64,000 bases of DNA from Deltaproteobacteria bacterium. GTDB taxonomy: Bacteria; Myxococcota; Myxococcia; Myxococcales; Anaeromyxobacteraceae. The stretch spans positions 434,001 through 498,000 of the forward strand of contig JACRMN010000012.1 in the NCBI GenBank assembly GCA_016214955.1, given 5' to 3'. Below are positions 22,330 through 37,421 of this stretch, piece after piece (within the stretch, counting starts at the first letter, position 1; each line of letters begins with the position of its first letter). The position numbers were made by a program, and so were the translations under genes. The notes below the pieces were generated by a model. The model did no database searches, was not told where the DNA came from, and worked only from the letters and a program-made list of their open reading frames with translations.

Positions 22330-22680
22330 CTAGAGGCTGCCCACGAGGGCCTTGAGGCGCCGCATGGCGCGGGGCTCGACGCAGTAGCACACGCGCGGCC
22401 CGTCGATGTCGCCGCGGACGAGCCCCGCCCCCCTGAGCACCTCGAGGTGCTGGGAGACGGTGGACTGGGCCAGCGGCAGCTCGTCGACGATGTCGCCGCA
22501 GACGCAGGACTCGCGCCGGGCCAGCAGGCGCAGGATCTGGACGCGGGCCGGGTGGCCCACCGCCTTGGCGAGGAGCGCCAGCTCCTCGTCGGCGGCCTTG
22601 CCCTCGACGGGGCGGAGGTCGGGAGCCTCCCGGGGGGCCGTCACCGGCTCACACGGGCTCTTCCTGAGGGCGCTGGGCAT
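22330..22680 (-). CDS. arsR: ArsR-family winged-helix repressor
   Basis: The 116-residue protein has the ArsR/SmtB fold: [51 protein letters not shown]. The ESCVCGDI part holds the two cysteines of the classical ELCVCDL metalloid-binding site in helix 3, and a further Cys pair occurs in RVCYCVEP, so soft-metal or arsenite sensing is plausible. It is divergent from the thioredoxin/permease cluster, whose promoter contains an inverted repeat. A TAGAAC hexamer ends 7 nt before its ATG. Confidence 0.9.
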
Positions 22681-23958: not shown

Positions 23959-25071
23959 ATGAGCCGGCCCACCATCGAGAGCGGTACCCCGCCGGCCCCC
24001 TGCTGCGGCGACGCCTGGTCCGGCGTGACGCCCGGCGCGCCGCCCGCGTCCCGCCTGCCCGGGACCCTGGCACTCCTGGCGCTGGCGCTCGCCGCCTGGG
24101 CCGCCGCCTACGCCGCCATCCTCCCGCTGTCGGAGTGGATCACCTTCCGGCTCCTGGGGCTCTCGCCCGGCTCGCGCCTCGGCCAGAGCGTGGCCTTCTT
24201 CCTGTACGACGCCCCCAAGGTGCTGCTGCTCCTCACCCTGGTGGTCTTCCTGGTGGGGATCGTCCGCTCCTTCTTCACCCCGGAGCGGACCCGGGCGCTC
24301 CTGGCGGGCCGCCGCGAGTCGGTGGGCAACGTGCTGGCGGCCGCCCTGGGCATCGTCACCCCCTTCTGCTCCTGCTCGGCGGTGCCCCTCTTCATCGGCT
24401 TCGTCGAGGTGGGCATCCCGCTGGGCGTCACGCTCTCCTTCCTGATCTCGGCGCCCATGGTGAACGAGGTGGCGCTGGTGCTGCTCTTCGGGCTCTTCGG
24501 CTGGAAGGTTGCCGCCCTCTACCTCGCCACCGGCCTCACCATCGCCATCCTGGCCGGCTTCGTGCTGGGGAGGCTGAAGCTGGAGCGGTTCGTGGAGCCG
24601 TGGGTCCACGAGTCGATGCAGGCCGCCGGGGCCACCTACCAGGCCGAGCGGCTCGGCTTCGCCGGGCGGGTGGAGAAGGGGACCGAGGCGGTGCGCGACG
24701 TGGTGGGCAAGGTCTGGCCCTGGGTCCTCCTCGGCATCGCGGTGGGAGCCGGGATCCACGGCTACGTGCCCGAGGGGCTCCTGGCCGGGGTGATGGGCAA
24801 GGCGGCCTGGTGGTCGGTGCCGGTGGCGGTGCTCATCGGCGTGCCCATGTACTCGAACGCCGCCGGCATCATCCCGGTGGTGGAGGCGCTGCTCGGCAAG
24901 GGCGCGGCCCTGGGCACCGTGCTGGCGTTCATGATGTCGGTCATCGCCCTCTCGCTGCCGGAGATGATCATCCTGCGCAAGGTGCTGCGCCCGCCGCTCA
25001 TCGCCGCCTTTGCCGGCGTGGTGGCGGTGGGGATCCTGCTGGTGGGCTGGCTGTTCAACGCGCTGCTCTGA
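23959..25071 (+). CDS. COG0701/ArsP-like permease
   Basis: The 370-residue protein has about eight spans and the family signatures TPFCSCSAVPLFIGF and, in the second half, IGVPMYSNAAGIIPVVEALLGKG. ArsP members export trivalent organoarsenicals; others in this family have unknown substrates. An N-terminal vicinal cysteine pair (PAPCCGDAW) is a possible thiophilic metal site. It lies between a CcdA-like protein and a small thioredoxin, under probable ArsR control, which supports a thiol-reactive substrate. Confidence 0.85.
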   Translation: MSRPTIESGTPPAPCCGDAWSGVTPGAPPASRLPGTLALLALALAAWAAAYAAILPLSEWITFRLLGLSPGSRLGQSVAFFLYDAPKVLLLLTLVVFLVGIVRSFFTPERTRALLAGRRESVGNVLAAALGIVTPFCSCSAVPLFIGFVEVGIPLGVTLSFLISAPMVNEVALVLLFGLFGWKVAALYLATGLTIAILAGFVLGRLKLERFVEPWVHESMQAAGATYQAERLGFAGRVEKGTEAVRDVVGKVWPWVLLGIAVGAGIHGYVPEGLLAGVMGKAAWWSVPVAVLIGVPMYSNAAGIIPVVEALLGKGAALGTVLAFMMSVIALSLPEMIILRKVLRPPLIAAFAGVVAVGILLVGWLFNALL

Positions 25072-25084
25072 GGAGGACAGGGAG

Positions 25085-25318
25085 ATGAGGATCCAGGTGC
25101 TGGGAACCGGTTGCCAGAAGTGCAAGCAGCTCACCGCCAACGCCGAGCAGGCGGTGGCCGAGCTGGCCCTGGGCGCGACGGTCGAGAAGGTGGAGGACCT
25201 CCGCGAGATCATGAAGTTCAGGGTGATGGCCACGCCGGCGCTGGTGGTGGACGGCCAGGTGCGCTCCGCCGGCAAGGTGCTGTCGCCGTCCGAGGTGAAG
25301 AAGGTCCTGGCCGGCTGA
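25085..25318 (+). CDS. Small thioredoxin-fold protein (redox-active disulfide protein 2 type)
   Basis: This 77-residue protein is a minimal thioredoxin fold with GTGCQKCKQL as its CxxC site and VMATPALVVDGQV as the cis-proline loop. It begins 13 bp after the permease with a GAGGAGGACAGGGAG ribosome binding site. Homologues regularly accompany COG0701 permeases. It has no signal, so it should act in the cytoplasm, perhaps reducing the permease cysteines or the CcdA-like protein. Confidence 0.9.
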   Translation: MRIQVLGTGCQKCKQLTANAEQAVAELALGATVEKVEDLREIMKFRVMATPALVVDGQVRSAGKVLSPSEVKKVLAG

Positions 25319-25360: not shown

Positions 25361-26725
<1,365 letters not shown>

Positions 26726-26726
26726 C

Positions 26727-28184
26727 TCAGCGCGGCGGCGGCGTCTCGGCCGGCGGCGCGGCGAGCCCGGGCGGAGCCTCGGGCAGCCAGAGGGTCGCCA
26801 CGGTGCCGCGCCCGGGGAACTCGAAGGAGAGCTCCCCGCCGTTGGCCTCGGCGATGGTGCGGGTGACCGAGAGCCCGAGCCCGGTGCCCTCGCCCTCGGG
26901 CTTGGTGCTGAAGAAGGGGTCGGTCACCCGCTCCCGGATCTCCGGCGGGATGCCGGGCCCGTCGTCCTCCACCGAGACGCCGCAGCGGCCCGGGCGGAGG
27001 CGGAGCCGGAGGCGGATCTCGCCGCCGTCGTGGGTCACGTAGCCGGCGTTGAGGAGCAGGTTGAGCAGCGCCTGGCCCACCTGCTTGCGGTCGGCCAGGG
27101 CCCGGGCGTCGCCGATGCCCTGGGAGACGAGCTGCACGGCGATGCGGCGCTTGCGGAGGATGGGCTCCACGAAGGACATGCCCTCGCGCGCCAGCTCGGC
27201 GAGCCGGACCGCCTCCAGGCGCGCCGGCATCGGGCGGGCGAAGTCCAGCAGCCGCGCCATGACGTGCTCGACCCGCTCCACCCCCTCCTCCATGAGCTCC
27301 AGGTACTCGTCGGCCGTCTCGGGAGGCAGGCGCTCGTGCCGCAGGCGGCGCAGGCAGCTCTTCACCCCCGCGAGCGGGTTGTTGACCTCGTGGGCCACGC
27401 CCGCCACCAGGGAGCCCAGGGCCGCCATCCGCTCGGTGGCCACCGCCTTCTGCCGCGCCCGCTCCTGCTCCTCGTGGGCGGTCCGCAGGCGGAGCATCAT
27501 CTGGTTGAACCGCTCGGCCAATCCGGCGATCTCCAGGCTGCCGCGGGGCCGGACCGGGGCCGGCGCCGCGGCGGGATCGAAGCGGTCGGCGGCCCGCAGC
27601 AGCTCTCCCAGCGGGCTGGCGATGCCCCGCCCCACCACCAGCGCCGCCACCAGGCCTCCGAGGATGACCACCACCGCCAGCAGGCCGAGGAGCGTGGCCA
27701 GGTTGCGCCGGGTGGCGGCCAGGATGGCCATGTCCATCCCCAGCCGCACCTCGCCCGCGGCTCCCCCCAGGATGGGCACGCGAAGGTCGAGGTAGCGCGC
27801 AGCCCCGTCCACCACCACCACCGGACCGTCGTCGGGGCGGGAGAGAGCGGCGAGTGCGGGCGGCGTGCCGTCGGCGAAGGAGGTGGCCACCACCCGCCCC
27901 TCGCGGAGGACGAAGCAGTAGGCCACGCCCTCGCCCGCGGTGGCGCCGGCCACGAGCTCGTTGAGGCTCACGAGGTCCTCCACCAGCAGCGGCTCCGTGG
28001 CCTGGAGCGCGATCTGGCGGGCGATGATGCGCCCCAGGGCGTCCTGCTCGCGCGCCAGGGCGCGGCTGGCGATCCGGTTGGCGAAGACCAGGTGGGCGGC
28101 ATGGGTGAGCACCACGCCCAGCGCGGCGAAGGCCGCCAGTTGCGTCCAGAGCCGCAGGCGCGGCCAGCGCGGCCAGCGGCTCAC
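26727..28184 (-). CDS. Membrane sensor histidine kinase
   Basis: The 485-residue kinase has an N-terminal span (LAAFAALGVVLTHAAHLVF), a periplasmic region of about 135 residues, a second span (TLLGLLAVVVILGGLVAALVV), a HAMP-like linker, the H-box VAGVAHEVNNPLAG and ATPase boxes (LLNLLLNAGY, DDGPGIPPEI, GTGLGLS). GTG 28184 overlaps the stop of the binding-protein gene by 4 bp, so the two are coupled. With that lipoprotein and the NtrC-type regulator it forms a three-part sensing system. Confidence 0.93.
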   Translation of the reverse strand: MSRWPRWPRLRLWTQLAAFAALGVVLTHAAHLVFANRIASRALAREQDALGRIIARQIALQATEPLLVEDLVSLNELVAGATAGEGVAYCFVLREGRVVATSFADGTPPALAALSRPDDGPVVVVDGAARYLDLRVPILGGAAGEVRLGMDMAILAATRRNLATLLGLLAVVVILGGLVAALVVGRGIASPLGELLRAADRFDPAAAPAPVRPRGSLEIAGLAERFNQMMLRLRTAHEEQERARQKAVATERMAALGSLVAGVAHEVNNPLAGVKSCLRRLRHERLPPETADEYLELMEEGVERVEHVMARLLDFARPMPARLEAVRLAELAREGMSFVEPILRKRRIAVQLVSQGIGDARALADRKQVGQALLNLLLNAGYVTHDGGEIRLRLRLRPGRCGVSVEDDGPGIPPEIRERVTDPFFSTKPEGEGTGLGLSVTRTIAEANGGELSFEFPGRGTVATLWLPEAPPGLAAPPAETPPPR

Positions 28185-29107
28185 CGCCGCTGCCCCACCA
28201 CGGCGGCGGCGCTGTCGAAGAGGCCCGGCTCCGGCGGGCCAAAGCGATCGATGCCCACGGCGCGGAGCTGGGCCGCGGCCTCCGGGTCGCGGTGCAGCCC
28301 GAGCAGCACGGCGCGGAGGCGGGCGCGGGTCTCGGCCGGGAGGCGGGTGGCGGCCACCACCGGCATGAGGCCGTAGGCCGGCGAGCGGTGGATGACCCGC
28401 ACCCGCGAGGAGAGCTGCGGGTCGCGGGCCAGCAGCGACTCGTACACCAGGCTGTCCACCGCGGCCCCGTCGGCCAGCCCCCGGGCGACGGCATCGATGG
28501 AGCGATCGTGACTGCGCGTGAATGAGGTGGAGGCGAAATGGTGGCGGGGGTCGAGGCCGAGGCCGCGGAAGAGGCTGCTGGGGTAGAGGTGGCCGGAGAA
28601 GGAGAGCTCGTCGGTGAAGGCGAAGCGCTTGCCGGCCAGATCGGCCGGGGCGGTCGCCGGGCTGGTGGCCGGCACGATGAGGAGCGAGTGGTAGGTGCTC
28701 CGTCCGCCGATGACGGGGACGGCCAGCACCTCGACCGCCCCGGGGTCCCGCGCCAGCAGGTCGAGGTAGCCCCCGGTGCAGACCAGGGCGGCGTCGAGCT
28801 GGCCGGTGAGGAGCAGGTCGTCCACCTCGGCGTAGGTGCGCCGCTGCAGGAAGCGGATCTCGGCGCCGAGGAGGGTGCCCATGCGGTCGAAGAAGCGGGA
28901 GTAGGCGGCGAAGGTGTCCTGCGGCGACTGGATGGCCGCCACCGAGAAGCGAAGCACCGGGCGGGAGGGGCGCTCGGGCCGGCTCTCCGTCCGCGCCGGC
29001 CGGGCGCTCATGTCCACCTCCACCTCGGGATAGGGGCTCTGCGAGCAGGCCAGCGCGGCGCAGAGCGCGCAGGGGGCGGCGAGCCGGGTGGCGGAGCGGA
29101 GGCGCAT
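28181..29107 (-). CDS. PhnD-like periplasmic binding lipoprotein (sensor partner)
   Basis: The 308-residue protein has a basic start and hydrophobic segment ending in LACSQS, a probable lipoprotein site. The mature part matches phosphonate-type binding proteins: FSVAAIQSPQDTFAAYSRFFDRM, TYAEVDDLLLTGQLDAALVCTGGYLDL, LAGKRFAFTDELSFSGHLYPSSLF and GLADGAAVDSLVYESLL. Relatives act as oxyanion receptors for kinases (AioX/ArxX type) or as the input domain of TtrS. A TAGCAT hexamer ends 8 nt before the ATG. No ABC transporter genes are adjacent, favouring sensing over uptake. Confidence 0.85.
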   Translation of the reverse strand: MRLRSATRLAAPCALCAALACSQSPYPEVEVDMSARPARTESRPERPSRPVLRFSVAAIQSPQDTFAAYSRFFDRMGTLLGAEIRFLQRRTYAEVDDLLLTGQLDAALVCTGGYLDLLARDPGAVEVLAVPVIGGRSTYHSLLIVPATSPATAPADLAGKRFAFTDELSFSGHLYPSSLFRGLGLDPRHHFASTSFTRSHDRSIDAVARGLADGAAVDSLVYESLLARDPQLSSRVRVIHRSPAYGLMPVVAATRLPAETRARLRAVLLGLHRDPEAAAQLRAVGIDRFGPPEPGLFDSAAAVVGQRR

Positions 29108-29156: not shown

Positions 29157-29172
29157 GTTTCCAGAACGAAAC
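29157..29172. promoter_or_regulatory. Enhancer-like site 1 for the NtrC-type regulator
   Basis: GTTTCCAGAACGAAAC is a perfect inverted repeat (GTTTC-N6-GAAAC; flanking T and A extend the arms to 6). It shares the format GTTTCC-N5-G-N-AAC with site 2 and lies about 187 bp before the predicted transcription start. Confidence 0.6.
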
Positions 29173-29200
29173 ATCCGCGCGCACCCGCCCCTGCCGCGCC

Positions 29201-29216
29201 GTTTCCCTCTGGGAAC
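29201..29216. promoter_or_regulatory. Enhancer-like site 2 for the NtrC-type regulator
   Basis: GTTTCCCTCTGGGAAC is a near-perfect inverted repeat whose centre is 44 bp from site 1, about four helical turns, so both sites face the same side of the DNA. It lies about 143 bp before the predicted start of ttrB transcription. Confidence 0.6.
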
Positions 29217-29325
29217 GGTACCGCGTCCCGCCGTCCCTCACCGGCCGAGCCTCGGGTGGGCGCGCGGCGCCAAGCGGGCGCCGCGCCGCGCGAATCCCAT
29301 CGTCGACCTCGGCGGTCGGCTTCCC

Positions 29326-29341
29326 TGGACCCCGGCTTGCT
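29326..29341 (+). promoter_or_regulatory. Sigma-54 -24/-12 promoter for ttrBA
   Basis: TGGACCCCGGCTTGCT contains the invariant GG (29327-29328) and GC (29339-29340) exactly 10 nt apart and a TTGCT -12 half, close to the consensus TGGCAC-N5-TTGCW. The predicted start is near 29352, 45 nt before the ttrB ATG. Confidence 0.75.
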
Positions 29342-29396: not shown

Positions 29397-30143
29397 ATGG
29401 ACACCCTGATCAGGATGCAGGAAGACCTGGAGCGGGCCCTCGAGAAGCCGCCCGAGAAGCGGCGCTGGGCGATGCTGCTCGACGTGCGCAAGTGCGTGGG
29501 CTGCCACGCCTGCACGGTGGCCTGCGCCTCCGAGAACAAGCTCCCGCCCGGCCAGGTGTACCGGCCGGTCTTCGAGTACGAGCGGGGCCAGTACCCCGCC
29601 GTCACCCGCACCTTCCTGCCGCGCCCCTGCATGCAGTGCGACAAGCCTCCGTGCGTGAAGCCGTGCCCCGTGCCCAAGGGCCAGGCCACCCGCAAGGAGA
29701 AGAGGGGTGCCTCGGCGGGGCTGGTGGTCATCGACTACGCCGAGTGCATCGGCTGCGGCCAGTGCGTGGACGCCTGCCCCTACGGCGCACGCGCGGTCGA
29801 CGAGGGGAGGAACCACTCCGACGGCACCCCCGCCCCCCAGCCCTACGAGGTGGCGGCCTCCTTCGAGTACGGCCGCAAGCGGCAGCGGAATGCCAAGGCC
29901 GACCCCGTCGGCAAGGCCCGCAAGTGCCACTTCTGCGTCCACCGGCTGCAGGAGGGGATGCTGCCGCAGTGCATCTCCAGCTGCATCGGCCGCGCCGGCT
30001 ACTTCGGCGACGAGAGCGATCCGAAGAGCCTCATCGCCGAGGTGAAGAAGGCGAGCAAGGTCCAGGTGCTCAAGGCCAGGAAGGGCACGGCGCCGCGCGT
30101 CTACTACGTCGCCAGCGAGAAGCTGGAGGTGATCTATGGCTAA
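29397..30143 (+). CDS. ttrB: TtrB-like iron-sulfur electron-transfer subunit
   Basis: A 248-residue ferredoxin-type subunit with four [4Fe-4S] motif groups: CVGCHACTVAC, CMQCDKPPCVKPCP, CIGCGQCVDACP and CHFCVHRLQEGMLPQCISSC. Both the start (RRWAMLLDVRKCVG) and the end (VQVLKARKGTAPRVYYV) resemble TtrB of tetrathionate reductase. There is no signal peptide, so it would have to ride out with TtrA through the Tat system. An insertion of about 35 residues separates clusters three and four. It overlaps ttrA by 8 bp; the ATG follows GAGAGG. Confidence 0.88.
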   Translation: MDTLIRMQEDLERALEKPPEKRRWAMLLDVRKCVGCHACTVACASENKLPPGQVYRPVFEYERGQYPAVTRTFLPRPCMQCDKPPCVKPCPVPKGQATRKEKRGASAGLVVIDYAECIGCGQCVDACPYGARAVDEGRNHSDGTPAPQPYEVAASFEYGRKRQRNAKADPVGKARKCHFCVHRLQEGMLPQCISSCIGRAGYFGDESDPKSLIAEVKKASKVQVLKARKGTAPRVYYVASEKLEVIYG

Positions 30144-33100
30144 GAAGAACGGTACCTCGCGCCGCGACTTCCTGAAGACCGGTGCCATCGGCTGTGGCGC
30201 GCTCGCCATCTCCCAGCTCGACTTCGCCCGGGGCATCCTGGCCCGGGCCGAGGCCGGGGAGCTCACCGCCAAGGAGCTCTACGAGCTCGCCCAGGTCGAG
30301 AACCAGCTCTTCACCGTCTGCCTGAACTGCAACACCGGGTGCGGCATCAAGGTGAAGATCCTCGACGGCGTCGCCGCCAAGATCGACGGCAGCCCCTACA
30401 GCCCCTGGACGCTCACGCCGCACCTTCCCATGAGCGAGCCCCTGTCCCGGGCCGCCAAGGTCGACGGCGCCATCTGCCCCAAGGGACAGGCTGGCCACCA
30501 GGGAGCCTACGACCCCTACCGCATCCGCAAGGTGCTGAAGCGGGCCGGCAAGCGCGGCGAGGGGAAGTGGCAGAGCATTCCCTTCGACCAGGCCATCGGC
30601 GAGATCGTGAACGGCGGCAAGCTCTTCGCCCAGGTGCCCGGCGAGGAGACGCGCGAGGTGGCGGGCCTGAAGGCCCTCTACGCGCTCAAGGACCCCAAGG
30701 CCTTCGCCGACATGGGCGCCGACGTGGCCGCCCTCCGCAAGAAGAAGATGACCGTGGCCGAGTTCAAGGCCAAGCACGCCGCCCACCTCGACAAGCTCAT
30801 CGATCCCGACCACCCCGACTTCGGCCCCAGGAACAACCAGTTCGTCTACATGTGGGGCCGCAAGAAGGGCGGCCGGTCCGACTTCTCCAAGCGCTTCTAC
30901 GAGGCCTTCGGCACCGCCAACTTCCACGGCCACACCACGGTGTGCCAGGGCTCGCTCTACTTCGCCTGCAAGGCCATGAGCGAGCAGTACGTGGGCGACA
31001 CCTTCAAGGACGGCCAGAAGTTCTACTGGCAGGCCGACCTGGAGAACTCCGAGTACGTGGTCTTCGTGGGCTCGAACCTGTTCGACGCCAACTACGGCCC
31101 GCCCAACCGCACCCCGCGCATCACCCAGCGGCTGGTGGACGGCAAGCTCAAGATCGCGGTGCTCGATCCGCGCTTCTCCAAGCTCGCCTCGCGCGCCCCC
31201 GGGAGCTGGATCCCGGTGAAGCCCGGGACCGACGCCGCCTTCGCCATGGGCATGACCCGCTGGATCCTCGAGAACCAGCGCTTCGACGCCAAGTTCCTGG
31301 CCAACGCCAACAAGGCCGCGGCCGCCGCCGACAAGGAGAGCACCTGGTCGAACGGCGCCTGGCTGGTGAAGCTGGGCAAGGACGGGACCCCGGGCGGCTT
31401 CCTGCGGGCCTCGGAGATCGGGCTCAAGGCCAAGGAGGTCCGCAAGGACAAGGAGGGCAAGGAGTACGACTTCGAGTGGCTGGTGGTCCTCAAGGACGGC
31501 AAGCCGGTCGCCTTCGACCCCAACGACGAGAAGGAAGCGGTGGAGGGCGACCTCTTCGTCGACGCCGAGCTCCCGGCAGACAAGGCCGGAAGCATCCGGG
31601 TGAAGAGCGGCCTTCAGCTCATGAAGGAGGCCGCGCTGGAGAAGACCATCGCGGGGTACGCCGACCTCTGTGGCATCGAGGCCAAGGTGATCGAGGAGGT
31701 GGCCCGCGAGTTCACCTCCCACGGCAAGAAGGCGGCGGTGGACATGCACCGCGGGCCGGCCCAGCACACCAACGGCTTCTACAACATCTCGGCGCTGATG
31801 AGCCTCAACCTCCTGGTCGGGAACTTCGACTGGACTGGCGGGATGATTGCGGCCTCCACCTGGAACACCGACGGCTCCAAGACCGAGAAGCAGCCCTTCC
31901 CCCTGAAGAAGCTCTCGCCCAAGGTCGGGAAGGCCTTCGGCCTCTCCATCATCCGCCACGACGCCAAGTACGAGGAGTCCACCCTCTTCGAGGCGGCCAG
32001 GTACCCGGCCAAGCGCAACTGGTGGCCGCTCTCCTCCGACGTCTACGAGGAGATCCTGCCCTCCATCGCCGACGCCTACCCGTACCCGGCCAAGGCCCTG
32101 TTCTCGTACATGGCGGCTCCGACCTACGCGCTGCCGGCGGGCCACACCAACATCGAGGCGCTCACCGACCTGGAGCGGCTGCCGCTCTACTTCGCGAGCG
32201 ACATCACCATCGGCGTGACCTCCATGTACGCCGACTACCTCTTCCCCGACCTGCACTACCTCGAGCGCTGGGAGTTCCACGGCTCGCACCCCAACATGCC
32301 GGTCAAGGTGCAGCCGGTGCGGCAGCCCGTCATCGCCTCGCCCAACGAGGTGGTGAAGGTCTTCGGCGAGGAGCAGCCCATCTCCTACGAGACCGTCTGG
32401 CTGGCGCTGGCGGAGAAGCTCGGCCTGCCGGGCTTCGGCAAGGATGGCTTCGGGCCCGGCCAGGACTTCTGCCGGCCCGACGATCTCTACGTCCGCATGG
32501 TGGCCAACATCGCCTTCGACGGGAAGGAGCCTGTCGCCGACGCCGGCGCCGAGGACCTGCGCGTCTTCCAGGCGAGCCGCCGCCACCTGCCGAAGAACGT
32601 CTTCGACCAGGGCCGCTGGGAGAAGATCTGCGGCGCTGCCTGGGCCAAGGTGGTGACGGTGCTCTCGCGCGGGGGCCGGTTCGACACCCAGGAGGCCGCC
32701 TACAAGGGCGACCACGTCGCCAACAAGTACGGGAAGCTCATCAACCTGTACCAGGAGAAGACCGCCAAGGCGAAGGACGCCTTCACCGGCAAGCCCTACT
32801 TCGGGGCGGCGCGCTACGTGCCGGTGGTCGACACCCTGGGGCGCGAGCCCACCGCGCTGGCGGAGGGGTTCGACCTGCACCTCATCACGCAGCGCGACGT
32901 GCGCATGACCAAGTCGCGGACCATCACCCACAGCTACCTGACGTCGAGCCTCCCCGAGAACGCCATCCTGGTGAACGGGGCCGACGCCCGACGCCTCGGT
33001 CTCAAGACGGGCTCGAAGGTGAAGGTGGTCTCGGCCACCAACCCGGAGGGCGTCTACGACCTGAAGAACGGGGTGAAGAAGCCGATGGTGGGCGTGGTCC

Positions 33101-33345
33101 AGGTCACCGAGACCATCCGGCCCGGGATCGTCACCTTCACGGTGGGTCACGGCCACTGGGCCACCGGCGCCGCCGACGTCACCATCGACGGCAAGGTGGT
33201 GAGGGGCGACCCGCGGAGGGCGTCCGGCATCCACGCCAATGCTGCCATGTGGATCGACCCGCACCTCAAGAACACCTGCTTCATCGACAAGGTGGGCGGC
33301 AGCGTCTCGTTCTACGACACCCGGGTGAGGCTGGTCCCGGCCTAG
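30136..33345 (+). CDS. ttrA: TtrA-like molybdopterin oxidoreductase catalytic subunit
   Basis: This 1069-residue enzyme has a Tat signal (SRRDFLKTGAIGCGALAIS), an N-terminal [4Fe-4S] site (Cys62, Cys65, Cys69, Cys114) and a probable molybdenum-ligand Cys270 in GHTTVCQGS. GKRGEGKWQSIPFDQAIGEI, FTSHGKKAAV and NGFYN are hallmarks of the tetrathionate reductase TtrA branch. This branch also contains selenate reductases, so the oxyanion is not settled. Genes run B then A as in ttrBCA, but the NrfD-type membrane subunit TtrC is missing. A strong hairpin follows the stop. Confidence 0.9.
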   Translation: MAKKNGTSRRDFLKTGAIGCGALAISQLDFARGILARAEAGELTAKELYELAQVENQLFTVCLNCNTGCGIKVKILDGVAAKIDGSPYSPWTLTPHLPMSEPLSRAAKVDGAICPKGQAGHQGAYDPYRIRKVLKRAGKRGEGKWQSIPFDQAIGEIVNGGKLFAQVPGEETREVAGLKALYALKDPKAFADMGADVAALRKKKMTVAEFKAKHAAHLDKLIDPDHPDFGPRNNQFVYMWGRKKGGRSDFSKRFYEAFGTANFHGHTTVCQGSLYFACKAMSEQYVGDTFKDGQKFYWQADLENSEYVVFVGSNLFDANYGPPNRTPRITQRLVDGKLKIAVLDPRFSKLASRAPGSWIPVKPGTDAAFAMGMTRWILENQRFDAKFLANANKAAAAADKESTWSNGAWLVKLGKDGTPGGFLRASEIGLKAKEVRKDKEGKEYDFEWLVVLKDGKPVAFDPNDEKEAVEGDLFVDAELPADKAGSIRVKSGLQLMKEAALEKTIAGYADLCGIEAKVIEEVAREFTSHGKKAAVDMHRGPAQHTNGFYNISALMSLNLLVGNFDWTGGMIAASTWNTDGSKTEKQPFPLKKLSPKVGKAFGLSIIRHDAKYEESTLFEAARYPAKRNWWPLSSDVYEEILPSIADAYPYPAKALFSYMAAPTYALPAGHTNIEALTDLERLPLYFASDITIGVTSMYADYLFPDLHYLERWEFHGSHPNMPVKVQPVRQPVIASPNEVVKVFGEEQPISYETVWLALAEKLGLPGFGKDGFGPGQDFCRPDDLYVRMVANIAFDGKEPVADAGAEDLRVFQASRRHLPKNVFDQGRWEKICGAAWAKVVTVLSRGGRFDTQEAAYKGDHVANKYGKLINLYQEKTAKAKDAFTGKPYFGAARYVPVVDTLGREPTALAEGFDLHLITQRDVRMTKSRTITHSYLTSSLPENAILVNGADARRLGLKTGSKVKVVSATNPEGVYDLKNGVKKPMVGVVQVTETIRPGIVTFTVGHGHWATGAADVTIDGKVVRGDPRRASGIHANAAMWIDPHLKNTCFIDKVGGSVSFYDTRVRLVPA

Positions 33346-33989: not shown

Positions 33990-34943
33990 ATGAGGAAGCT
34001 CTTCGCCGTCGCCCTGGCCCTGGCCGTCTCGCCGGCGTTCGCCCAGCAGACGCCGGTCCGCCTCTCGATCGCCACCGGCGGCACCGGCGGCGTCTACTAC
34101 CCCCTCGGCGGCGGCATGGCCGCAATGCTCTCCAGGACCATCCCGGGCGTCGAGGCCACCGCCGAGGTGACGAGCGCCTCGGTGGACAACGTCAAGCTGG
34201 TGGCTGCGGGCAAGGCCGACATCGCCTTCGTCCTCGGAGACACCGCCGCCGAGGGCTTCGCCGGCACCGGCAAGTTCAAGGAGAAGGCGCCCATCCGCGC
34301 CATCGCCGTGCTCTACGCCAACAAGGGGCAGTGGGTCACGGTGGAGGGCACCGGCGTGGAGAAGATGCAGGACCTGAAGGGCCGGCGCATCGCCACCGGC
34401 GCGCCCGGCTCCGGCACCGAGATCATCGCCATCCGCACCCTGGAGGCCTACGGCCTCGACCCCGACAAGGACGTGAAGCGCGAGAAGCTCTCGGTGGCCG
34501 AGTCGGTCAACGCCCTCAAGGACCGCAAGATCGACGCCTTCTTCTGGTCGGGCGGCGTGCCCACCGCCGCCGTCACCGACCTGGGCGCCACCCCGGGCGT
34601 GAAGATCAAGCTCATCGACCACGCCGACGGCGTGCCCGCCATGGTGAAGAAGTACGGCCCGCTCTACGTGAAGGGCACCATTCCCGCCAGGTCCTACCCG
34701 GGCCAGACCAGGGAAGCGGCCGTGGCCGACGTGTGGAACGTGCTCCTGGTCCACGAGAAGATGGACGAGAAGCTGGTCCACGACGTGGTGAAGGCCGTCT
34801 TCGAGAAGAAGGCCGACCTGGTGGCGGTGCACGCGGAGGCCCAGAACCTGGACCTGGCGGTCCAGCTCCAGGGCGGCTCGCCCATCCCCTTCCACCCCGG
34901 GGCACTGCGCTACTTCGCCGAGAAGGGCGTGAAGGGCAAGTAG
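33990..34943 (+). CDS. TAXI-family TRAP transporter solute-binding protein
   Basis: The 317-residue protein has a signal peptide (residues 1-18, KLFAVALALAVSPAFAQ) and the TAXI hallmarks LSIATGGTGGVYYPLGGGMA, TSASVDNVKLVAAGKADIAFVLGD and ATGAPGSGTEIIAIRTLEAYGL. It captures a small solute for the fused permease at 35430; known TAXI ligands include glutamate and other organic acids. The start follows a GGAGGTG ribosome binding site. The DUF1850 gene overlaps its stop by 1 bp. Confidence 0.93.
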   Translation: MRKLFAVALALAVSPAFAQQTPVRLSIATGGTGGVYYPLGGGMAAMLSRTIPGVEATAEVTSASVDNVKLVAAGKADIAFVLGDTAAEGFAGTGKFKEKAPIRAIAVLYANKGQWVTVEGTGVEKMQDLKGRRIATGAPGSGTEIIAIRTLEAYGLDPDKDVKREKLSVAESVNALKDRKIDAFFWSGGVPTAAVTDLGATPGVKIKLIDHADGVPAMVKKYGPLYVKGTIPARSYPGQTREAAVADVWNVLLVHEKMDEKLVHDVVKAVFEKKADLVAVHAEAQNLDLAVQLQGGSPIPFHPGALRYFAEKGVKGK

Positions 34944-35413
34944 TGGTGGGCCGGGCCCTGCGCCTCCCCGCCCTGGCCGGCATCGTCGCACTGCTGGCTG
35001 GCCTGTGGCCGGTGGAGGGGCTGGAGATCGAGAACGCCGCCCGCAAGGGGCGCTGGCGCCTGGCGCTGCCCTCGGGCGGCGCCTTCGCCATCACCTCGCA
35101 CCACTCCATGTACGAGCAGCCCTACACCGAGCGCTTCGCCGTGGACGGCGAGGGGCACATTTTGCTGCGCGAGGTCTCGAGCCCCAGCGCCGCCGTGCGC
35201 GAGTACCTGGGCATCACCGGGCCGGGCGAGCGCCACCCGGCCTCGCGGGTGCTGCCGGAGCTGGTGCTGCGGGTGGCCGCCGGCGAGGCGCAGGAGCTGA
35301 CCATCGGCGACAGGGCGCGCTCGCTGCTGGGCTACGGGGCTCACGGCGACCGGCTGGTGCTGCGCGCCGTCCGCCGGCCCATGCTGGCCCGTCTCCTCCC
35401 CGGCGGTCCCTGA
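34943..35413 (+). CDS. DUF1850 protein of the TRAP-TAXI operon
   Basis: Of 156 residues, the first ~22 form a signal or anchor, and the rest contains LPSGGAFAITSHHSMYEQPYTERFAVD and RARSLLGYGAHGDRLVL, typical of DUF1850, a family found almost only between TAXI binding protein and permease genes. Start may be GTG 34943 (1-bp overlap with the previous stop) or the next GTG at 34946. Its role in transport is unknown. Confidence 0.85.
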   Translation: MVGRALRLPALAGIVALLAGLWPVEGLEIENAARKGRWRLALPSGGAFAITSHHSMYEQPYTERFAVDGEGHILLREVSSPSAAVREYLGITGPGERHPASRVLPELVLRVAAGEAQELTIGDRARSLLGYGAHGDRLVLRAVRRPMLARLLPGGP

Positions 35414-35429
35414 ATCGCGAAAGGAAGCC

Positions 35430-37421
35430 ATGGCCGAGACCGAGCAGCAGCCCGCCCCCGCCGAGGTGGTCGTCGACGAGGAGGCCCGCCGCAAGGCCGA
35501 GGAGTTCGTCGAGGAGGAGGAGGGGGCCACCAGCCACCACCAGGGCTGGCTCGCCCGGTTCCTCACCGTGACCGCGGTGGTGATGACGGCGTTCCACCTC
35601 TACGCCGCCTACGCCATCGTCCCGCAGCAGATCCTCCGGGCCATCCACCTGGGGTTCGTGCTCTTCCTCAGCTACCTGCTCTTCCCGGCGCTCAAGCGGC
35701 TGCGCCACAAGCTCCAGTGGTGGGACGTGGGGCTGGCGCTGCTCTCGCTGGCGGTCATCGGCTGGATGCTCGTCGACTTCGACGACTTCATCGAGCGGGC
35801 CGTCACCCCCAACCGCTGGGACATGTTCTTCGGCGTGGCCCTCGTCCTGCTGGTGCTGGAGGCCACCCGGCGCACCTCGGGCCTGGTCCTCACCCTGGTG
35901 GTGACGCTGTTCCTGGTCTACGCCTTCGTCGGCCCCTGGCTGCCGGCCCCCTGGACCCACCGCGGCTACGACCTGGAGCGGCTGGTGGGCCACATGTACA
36001 TGACGCTGGAGGGGATCTTCGGCTCGGCCATCGACGTCTCGGCCACCTTCATCATCCTCTTCACCATCTACGGCGCGGTGCTGCAGCACTCCGGCGCCGG
36101 CGAGTTCTTCATCGACTTCTCCTTCGCCGCCACCGGCGGCAAGCGGGCCGCCGCCGGCCGCACCATCGTGCTCTCCTCGTTCCTGCTGGGCGGCCCCTCG
36201 GGCAGCGGCGTGGCCACCACCGTCACGCTGGGCTCGGTGGCCTGGCCCATGCTGGCGCGCGCCGGCTACGGGAAGGAGCAGGCCGGCGGCCTGCTGGCCG
36301 CGGGCGGCCTCGGCGCCATCATCTCGCCCCCGGTGCTGGGGGCGGCGGCCTTCCTCATCGCCGAGTTCCTGAAGATCTCCTACATGGACGTGATCTGGAT
36401 GGCGACCATCCCGACCGTCCTCTACTACCTGGCCCTCTTCCTGATGGTGGAGCTGGACGCCGCCAAGCTGGGCATGAAGGAGGTGGCCGTCGAGCGCCGG
36501 GAGAGCCTGTGGCAGATGGCCAAGGGGCGCGGCTTCCACTTCCTCTCGCTGGTGGCCATCGTCCTCTTCATGGTGGCCGGCTTCAGCCCCATCATCGCCG
36601 TCTTCTGGGCCATCGTGCTGGCGGCGGCGCTCTCCTTCCTGCGCAGGGACACGGCGCTCACCTTCTGGCCCACGCCCGGCACGCCCTTGCTGCAGACCAA
36701 GATGGTGAAGGCCCTGGCCGGTGGCTCGCTGGGGGTGCTCAACGTGGCCGCCACCTGCGCCTCGGCCGGCATCATCGTGGGCGTGGTGACGCTCACCGGC
36801 CTGGGGCTCAAGTTCAGCTCCATCGTCATCGACCTGGCCGGCAGCAACCTGGCGCTCACCGCCATCTACACCGGGCTGGTGGTCTGGGTGGTGGGCCTGG
36901 CCGTGCCGGTGACCGCCAGCTACATCATCTGCGCCGTCATCGCCGCGCCGGCCCTCACCAAGCTGGGCGTGCCAGACTACGCCGCCCACATGTTCATCTT
37001 CTACTACGCGGTGCTCTCCGAGGTGTCGCCGCCCACCGCGCTCTCGCCGTTCGCCGCCGCCGCCATCACCGGCGGCGATCCCTACCGGACGACGCTGCAG
37101 TCCTGGAAGTACACGCTGCCCGCGTTCCTGGTGCCCTTCGCCTTCGTGCTCGAGAAGGACGGCGCCGGCCTGCTCCTCAAGGGCAGCGCCTGGGGAGTGG
37201 TCCACACCGCCGCCACCGCGGTGGTGGGCATCGCCGCCCTGGCCTTCGGCGTCCAGGGCTGGATGTTTCGCCGCACCACCGCCCTGGAGCGAGTAGCGCT
37301 CATCGCCGCCGGCCTGCTGCTGGTATACCCGTCCACGGTCGCCGACGTCGCCGGCGTGGGGCTGGTGGCGGCGGTGGCGCTGTGGCAGTGGAGCGGCAAG
37401 CGGCGGGCCCTGCCCGCCTGA
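35430..37421 (+). CDS. TRAP transporter permease, fused small and large membrane subunits
   Basis: The 663-residue protein has an acidic cytoplasmic head, about four spans of the DctQ-like region, then the DctM-like large subunit with GGPSGSGVATTVTLGS, the GGLGAIISPPVLGAAAFLIAEF motif and SEVSPPTALSPFAAAAITGGDPYRT near the end. It uses an ion gradient to drive uptake of the solute bound by the TAXI protein. The extra C-terminal spans (ALIAAGLLLVYPSTVADV) are normal for this type. Confidence 0.93.
   Translation: MAETEQQPAPAEVVVDEEARRKAEEFVEEEEGATSHHQGWLARFLTVTAVVMTAFHLYAAYAIVPQQILRAIHLGFVLFLSYLLFPALKRLRHKLQWWDVGLALLSLAVIGWMLVDFDDFIERAVTPNRWDMFFGVALVLLVLEATRRTSGLVLTLVVTLFLVYAFVGPWLPAPWTHRGYDLERLVGHMYMTLEGIFGSAIDVSATFIILFTIYGAVLQHSGAGEFFIDFSFAATGGKRAAAGRTIVLSSFLLGGPSGSGVATTVTLGSVAWPMLARAGYGKEQAGGLLAAGGLGAIISPPVLGAAAFLIAEFLKISYMDVIWMATIPTVLYYLALFLMVELDAAKLGMKEVAVERRESLWQMAKGRGFHFLSLVAIVLFMVAGFSPIIAVFWAIVLAAALSFLRRDTALTFWPTPGTPLLQTKMVKALAGGSLGVLNVAATCASAGIIVGVVTLTGLGLKFSSIVIDLAGSNLALTAIYTGLVVWVVGLAVPVTASYIICAVIAAPALTKLGVPDYAAHMFIFYYAVLSEVSPPTALSPFAAAAITGGDPYRTTLQSWKYTLPAFLVPFAFVLEKDGAGLLLKGSAWGVVHTAATAVVGIAALAFGVQGWMFRRTTALERVALIAAGLLLVYPSTVADVAGVGLVAAVALWQWSGKRRALPA

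Follow-up and report, generated by a model that had tools for sequence, protein, structure and literature searches.

Many genomic 'ttrA' genes have no known substrate, and Anaeromyxobacter sp. PSR-1 respires arsenate although it lacks arrAB (PMC4432346). The window (i.e. the whole stretch of 64,000 nucleotides of DNA analysed here, from a myxobacterium of the same family as Anaeromyxobacter) contains a pair of ttrBA-like genes preceded by apparent regulatory elements, raising the question of which signal controls these genes and what their products reduce. The likely answer is an oxyanion switch of the AioXSR/ArrX type with a new wiring, in which an ArrX-like receptor and a sigma-54 regulator drive a TtrA-like reductase.

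Twin boxes and a promoter-like element

All candidate elements were located between the divergent receptor gene (28181-29107, minus strand) and the ttrB-like gene, whose ATG is at 29397 on the plus strand. The distal putative activator box, GTTTCCAGAACGAAAC (29157-29172, plus strand), has the form GTT-N10-AAC, scores at 8/8 positions and is a perfect GTTTC-N6-GAAAC. The proximal putative box, GTTTCCCTCTGGGAAC (29201-29216, plus strand), lies 44 bp from it, start to start, and has one mismatch to the same palindrome. The boxes start at -240 and -196, respectively, relative to the ATG. A predicted sigma-54 (-24/-12) promoter-like element, TGGACCCCGGCTTGCT (TGGACC-N5-TTGCT; 29326-29341, plus strand), fits the GG-N10-GC pattern with TTGCW at exact spacing; it lies 125 bp from the proximal box, start to start, and is separated from the ATG by 55 nt. 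The preliminary description had reported the two 16-mers, their 44-bp distance and the exact GG-GC spacing of the TGGACC-N5-TTGCT element, all of which were found again. GTTTCN6GAAAC with at most one mismatch was observed twice against an expectation of 0.22 (4 of 100 shuffles reached two) and GTTN10AAC five times against 1.09. TGGNNCN5TTGCW was observed once against 0.39, a count that 32 of 100 shuffles reached. By frequency, therefore, the sigma-54 match has no significance of its own and the boxes have only mild significance.

Conservation was assessed in genomes of the phylum Myxococcota, 8 of 195 of which encode a receptor orthologue of at least 50% identity (i.e. the genome of the window itself (G000), G011, G012, Anaeromyxobacter sp. 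PSR-1 (G016), G018, G022, G125 and G109). A box pair was counted where two boxes lay at a distance of 43-44 bp and each matched 7 or more of the 8 scored positions. Twin GTT-N10-AAC boxes were present beside the receptor/kinase/regulator module in six of these eight genomes, with spacings of 44 bp in the window, 43 bp in G011, 44 bp in G012, 43 and 44 bp at two promoters of PSR-1, 43 bp in G125 and 44 bp in G109. In G018, two promoters each combine a single full box with a half-site at a distance of 44 bp, and G022 had the module and no box pair. Four more distant receptors, with 38-45% identity (one each in G192 and G021, two in G165), had no pair beside them, the upstream region of one being cut by a contig end. 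In an offset test of seven promoters, anchored on promoters already seen to contain a box, the score sum was 48 at 43-44 bp and averaged 18.3 (SD 4.0) at other offsets. Conservation of both 16-mers in related loci had been proposed as the check on their function, and it was borne out in the orthologous loci. The putative boxes rise above chance because both their pairing and the distance between them are conserved. Chance palindromes were rejected as an explanation on the grounds that the pair is conserved.

A scan of 58 loci of at least 5 kb (937,073 bases) returned 15 pairs 42-45 bp apart, three of which were the same DNA under two identifiers. Ten of the 12 distinct pairs were beside a receptor-kinase-regulator module, including the arx locus of Azoarcus and the aio loci of two Burkholderiaceae, and two were elsewhere. 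Among 26 related ttrBA loci, two had the module (L035 and L036), L041 and L054 were omitted as the region before ttrB was missing, and 22, in which no module reached 50% identity, served as controls. A box pair was found in none of these 22 controls, one of which (L046) offered only 139 bp before ttrB and another of which (L039, A. oryzisoli) has a 41% identical regulator and a 38% identical receptor nearby. As pairs occur beside the module and are absent from the ttrBA loci without it, the putative boxes follow the regulator, not the enzyme, on this comparative evidence. The genome of the window (5.3 Mb, 30 contigs) contains 23 distinct single-box sites; three had no locus and were left out, and the pair in the window was the only one among the 20 sites examined. 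A wider regulon in this genome was rejected, no second pair being found at those 20 of 23 sites.

The position of the boxes bears on whether they bind the regulator and mainly serve autoregulation of the divergent receptor/kinase operon, with ttrBA driven otherwise. In favour of this, the distal box starts 50 bp before the start codon of the receptor gene, several orthologous loci likewise have their boxes in a divergent intergenic region, and the sigma-54 match is weak by frequency. However, sigma-54-like elements in the box-to-ttrB orientation follow the boxes in five other promoters at 122, 115, 69, 103 and 123 bp (103 and 123 bp being measured from a half-site), and a further pair in PSR-1 precedes an operon that does not diverge from the receptor gene. 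A mainly autoregulatory role is accordingly considered improbable. Such elements are nearer to the boxes in G125 (36 bp) and G109 (57 bp), and the first PSR-1 promoter has twin boxes with no sigma-54 match.

Receptor, kinase and regulator

The receptor gene encodes a periplasmic ArrX/AioX-like protein of 308 aa with a Phosphonate-bd domain and a lipoprotein-like signal; six aligned myxobacterial receptors have a common Cys at the lipobox-like place. The nearest solved structures were ArrX (1.3e-41) and AioX (1.2e-28). The arsenite/phosphate pocket of AioX is described as Tyr88, Cys106, Tyr131, Ser161, Ser163, His192 and Asp210, of which Cys106 is given as absent in PhnD (PMC5908839). All seven residues are kept in the window receptor (i.e. 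Y88, C106, Y131, S161, S163, H192 and D210), the numbers landing exactly on NT-26 AioX; none of the seven was kept by the sensor domain of TtrS in the same alignment. Position 162 is Phe in the window receptor and ArrX, and Asn in AioX. In a receptor tree, the AioX/ArxX rows formed a 100/100 group that excluded the window receptor and ArrX, with most other branches lacking support and the ArrX row being long. Homology thus defined places the receptor in the AioX/ArrX family of arsenic-oxyanion receptors. In the G022 receptor (L104), His replaces Asp210.

A separate sensor histidine kinase of 485 aa (26727-28184, minus strand), whose gene has a GTGA overlap with the receptor gene, has the same domains as AioS (HAMP, HisKA and HATPase). 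Convergent with the kinase gene is the gene for an NtrC/AtoC-type sigma-54 response regulator of 454 aa (25361-26725, plus strand), so the x, s and r genes are not in one operon. The regulator has a receiver domain, an AAA+ domain with GAFTGA and a Fis-type HTH, in agreement with the earlier claim of an adjacent NtrC-type regulator carrying this loop. Its recognition helix, GISRKSLW, resembles that of AioR/ArxR; the LW is common to 5 of 21 readable HTHs in 32 loci of the same genome, the regulator itself included. When AioR was compared with the proteins of this genome, another protein was the best match and the window regulator ranked only 12th of 114 matches. Orthology to AioR is therefore unproven. 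The domain layout of receptor, kinase and regulator is that of AioXSR, not of TtrSR, in which TtrR is a 194-aa LuxR-type regulator and TtrS a fused sensor-kinase with a PhnD-like domain. TtrSR-type control was rejected on the differences in domain layout and receptor pocket.

These components suggest a scheme in which the periplasmic ArrX-like lipoprotein would bind an oxyanion, most likely arsenate and possibly antimonate, and would then signal to the membrane kinase. The kinase would phosphorylate the NtrC/AtoC-type regulator, which may bind both GTT-N10-AAC boxes, whose 44-bp separation amounts to about four helical turns. Its AAA+ GAFTGA domain would open sigma-54 polymerase at the predicted element, leading to transcription of the genes for the TtrA-like reductase and the FeS subunit. 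What was observed is the elements and the conservation of their layout; every arrow between them is drawn from family knowledge, and we infer the binding of the regulator to the boxes, the sigma-54 transcription start, the ligand and the substrate alike. The preliminary description had spoken of a closed circuit readable from sequence: promoter, twin boxes and regulator appear to belong together, as they are conserved, and the circuit itself is an inference.

The enzyme and its substrate

The ttrB-like gene (29397-30143, plus strand) encodes a 4Fe-4S subunit of 248 aa and overlaps by 8 bp the ttrA-like gene (30136-33345, plus strand), which encodes a molybdopterin catalytic subunit of 1069 aa with a Tat signal; there is no ttrC between them. 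TtrB and TtrA were the best-scoring NCBIfam models for the two subunits, with scores below cut-off in both cases (172.9 bits against 416 for TtrB; 474.6 bits against 1750 for the TtrA equivalog). An annotated TtrA of Citrobacter scores 2076 bits on the TtrA equivalog, and no protein of the genome of the window exceeded its cut-off. Identity of the catalytic subunit to an annotated TtrA is ~30%. In a 28-row enzyme tree, which has some long outside rows and no AnrA or SrdA reference, the catalytic subunit fell in a 20-row clade (100/100) apart from TtrA, together with both PSR-1 copies and rows from Geobacteraceae, Desulfobulbaceae, Acidobacteriota and Nitrospirota.

A tetrathionate-sensing circuit for a genuine tetrathionate reductase, with sigma-54 in place of TtrR, would accord with the best-scoring models and with the PhnD-like domain of TtrS. 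Against it stand the scores far below cut-off for both subunits, the low identity to annotated TtrA, the separate and well-supported clade, the missing ttrC, a pocket of AioX/ArrX rather than TtrS type and the LuxR-type nature of TtrR, and this explanation is regarded as very unlikely. The label 'ttrBA', under which the genes were first described, is not supported by the model scores, the AioX/ArrX-type receptor and the AioXSR layout. The TtrA-type sequence of Muramatsu et al. 2020 is described as possibly an As(V) reductase without tetrathionate reductase activity (PMC9751629). Within PSR-1, one enzyme 77% identical and one 53-55% identical to that of the window are both behind twin boxes and share the same module. 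The title of the 2020 paper by Muramatsu et al. names PSR-1. On the strength of these comparisons, the TtrA-like reductase probably uses arsenate or antimonate.

AnrA is said to be an antimonate reductase of Geobacter sp. SVR (Kambara et al. 2024). The same circuit could have antimonate or another oxyanion as ligand and substrate, with an enzyme of the AnrA type as in that strain; we consider this somewhat unlikely. The Geobacteraceae rows in the enzyme clade are consistent with such a substrate, as is the statement that the ligand cannot be read from the pocket residues by themselves; in the binding results of the same report, on the other hand, ArrX bound only arsenate and, weakly, phosphate among the ligands tried (PMC5908839). 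Arsenate is retained as the most likely ligand.

The neighbouring genes include those for an ArsR/SmtB-family repressor (22330-22680, minus strand), an ArsP_1-family permease (23959-25071, plus strand; PF03773, 1.3e-69) and, directly upstream of the regulator gene, an MTH895/ArsE-family thioredoxin-like protein (25085-25318, plus strand; TIGR00412 over cut-off). Genes for ArsR, ArsP and ArsE-like thioredoxins were also found around some related loci. Downstream of the ttrBA-like operon, the window encodes an NMT1_3-family binding protein and a fused TRAP permease (33990-37421). In G011, PSR-1 and G018, the sigma-54 element is separated from ttrB by a small multihaem c-type cytochrome gene (about 6930-7225 in L035, with the corresponding position in L036 and L103) that the window lacks. 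A frameshift or an assembly error may explain a ttrA-like gene of Geotalea toluenoxydans matched in several separate pieces (L059, 8084-11191) and a ttrB-like match of G012 with one internal TGA (C59, 5390-6121).

Spread of the module and comparison with known systems

Beyond the window, Myxococcota may have coupled an ArrX-type sensor of arsenate (or antimonate) to an AioR-like sigma-54 activator and placed the resulting module, with its fixed 43-44 bp twin boxes, before quite different respiratory machines, i.e. TtrA-like reductases in relatives of Anaeromyxobacter and, in G125, an MtrC/MtrF-like cytochrome with ten CxxCH motifs; this generalization is tentative, with the chances slightly against it. 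If true, the sensor would point to what TtrA-like enzymes really act on and would hint at extracellular oxyanion respiration. The pocket residues and the two-box promoter code (43-44 bp) would offer a cheap and testable means of sorting true tetrathionate reductases from arsenic/antimony reductases, and the same combination could find the regulon.

Several arrangements of the module were recorded. In PSR-1, a single kinase-receptor pair is surrounded by two ttrBA-like operons, both of which have their own twin boxes (43 and 44 bp; L102, 2999-16832); the first operon, where no sigma-54 match was found, starts with an NrfD-like membrane gene. Perfect twin boxes in G125 (L168, 9363-12877) precede a gene for a 1118-aa protein in which an MtrC/MtrF-type domain and a collagen-like stretch accompany 10 CxxCH motifs; an outer-membrane-type cytochrome is thus apparently under the control of this switch there. 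The twin boxes of G109 (L169, 3734-9211) are flanked on one side by a moaA-like gene and on the other by clustered genes for a collagen-like protein with 3 CxxCH, a 1011-aa molybdoenzyme that reached no NCBIfam cut-off and a DmsB-like FeS protein. In G022 (L104, 9864-13197), receptor, kinase and regulator occur without ttrBA and adjoin a cytochrome that combines 8 CxxCH with a carboxypeptidase-regulatory-like domain.

Aio/arx-type sigma-54 switches with twin palindromes are, from the published descriptions, of an already known kind (PMC3834237, PMC5335332). As far as the literature was searched, and with priority uncertain, the new features are an ArrX-like receptor combined with a sigma-54 regulator, the TtrA-like target of the switch, its distribution across Myxococcota and the constant box distance of 43-44 bp. 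AioR is reported to bind GTTN10AAC and was footprinted on a 16-mer of that form (PMC5335332), which the window boxes match in consensus and form. Tandem palindromes 100-200 nt before aioB, with -24/-12 boxes, are reported for 12/12 aioXSR-controlled operons (PMC3834237); the window promoter has the two palindromes and the -24/-12 element of AioXSR/ArxXSR promoters, its distal box lying slightly outside 200 nt. In 14 named aio/arx plasmid loci (a fifteenth, L109, was not scored, being alike to L107), the 8-position score found a 43-44 bp pair in three, i.e. Azoarcus KH32C, Caballeronia and Paraburkholderia, the latter two being alike, and a 31-bp pair in Sulfuricella; the other ten had no pair by this score. 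This score is stricter than the published one, given the two palindromes reported in 12/12 operons.

The AioXSR/aioBA system of Rhizobium NT-26, Agrobacterium and Sinorhizobium M14 shares with the window the PhnD fold and the seven pocket residues of the receptor, the HAMP kinase, the NtrC/AtoC regulator, the -24/-12 promoter with tandem palindromes (PMC3834237) and the GTTN10AAC box (PMC5335332). The window differs in its TtrA-like enzyme, which is not an arsenite oxidase, in its ArrX-like, lipoprotein-like receptor, in a convergent regulator gene behind arsP- and ArsE-like genes and in its myxobacterial host. The module would work like AioXSR, but it was not filed as a member proper because the x, s and r genes are not in one operon. 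The TtrSR-TtrBCA system of a Citrobacter plasmid has distantly related catalytic and FeS subunits and likewise a PhnD-like sensing fold, but its sensor is fused to the kinase, its regulator is LuxR-type and it has ttrC. ArrX of Chrysiogenes arsenatis is the closest solved structure, with Phe 162 in both receptors, whereas ArrR is described as CitB-like without AAA+ (PMC5908839) and the window regulator is of the sigma-54 type. The arx locus of Azoarcus KH32C has the same twin boxes 44 bp apart, a sigma-54 element and a divergent receptor gene; its enzyme is ArxA-type and its receptor is in the AioX/ArxX group. With PSR-1, the source of the TtrA homologue of Muramatsu et al. 2020, the window shares the same module, and that strain carries two related enzymes.
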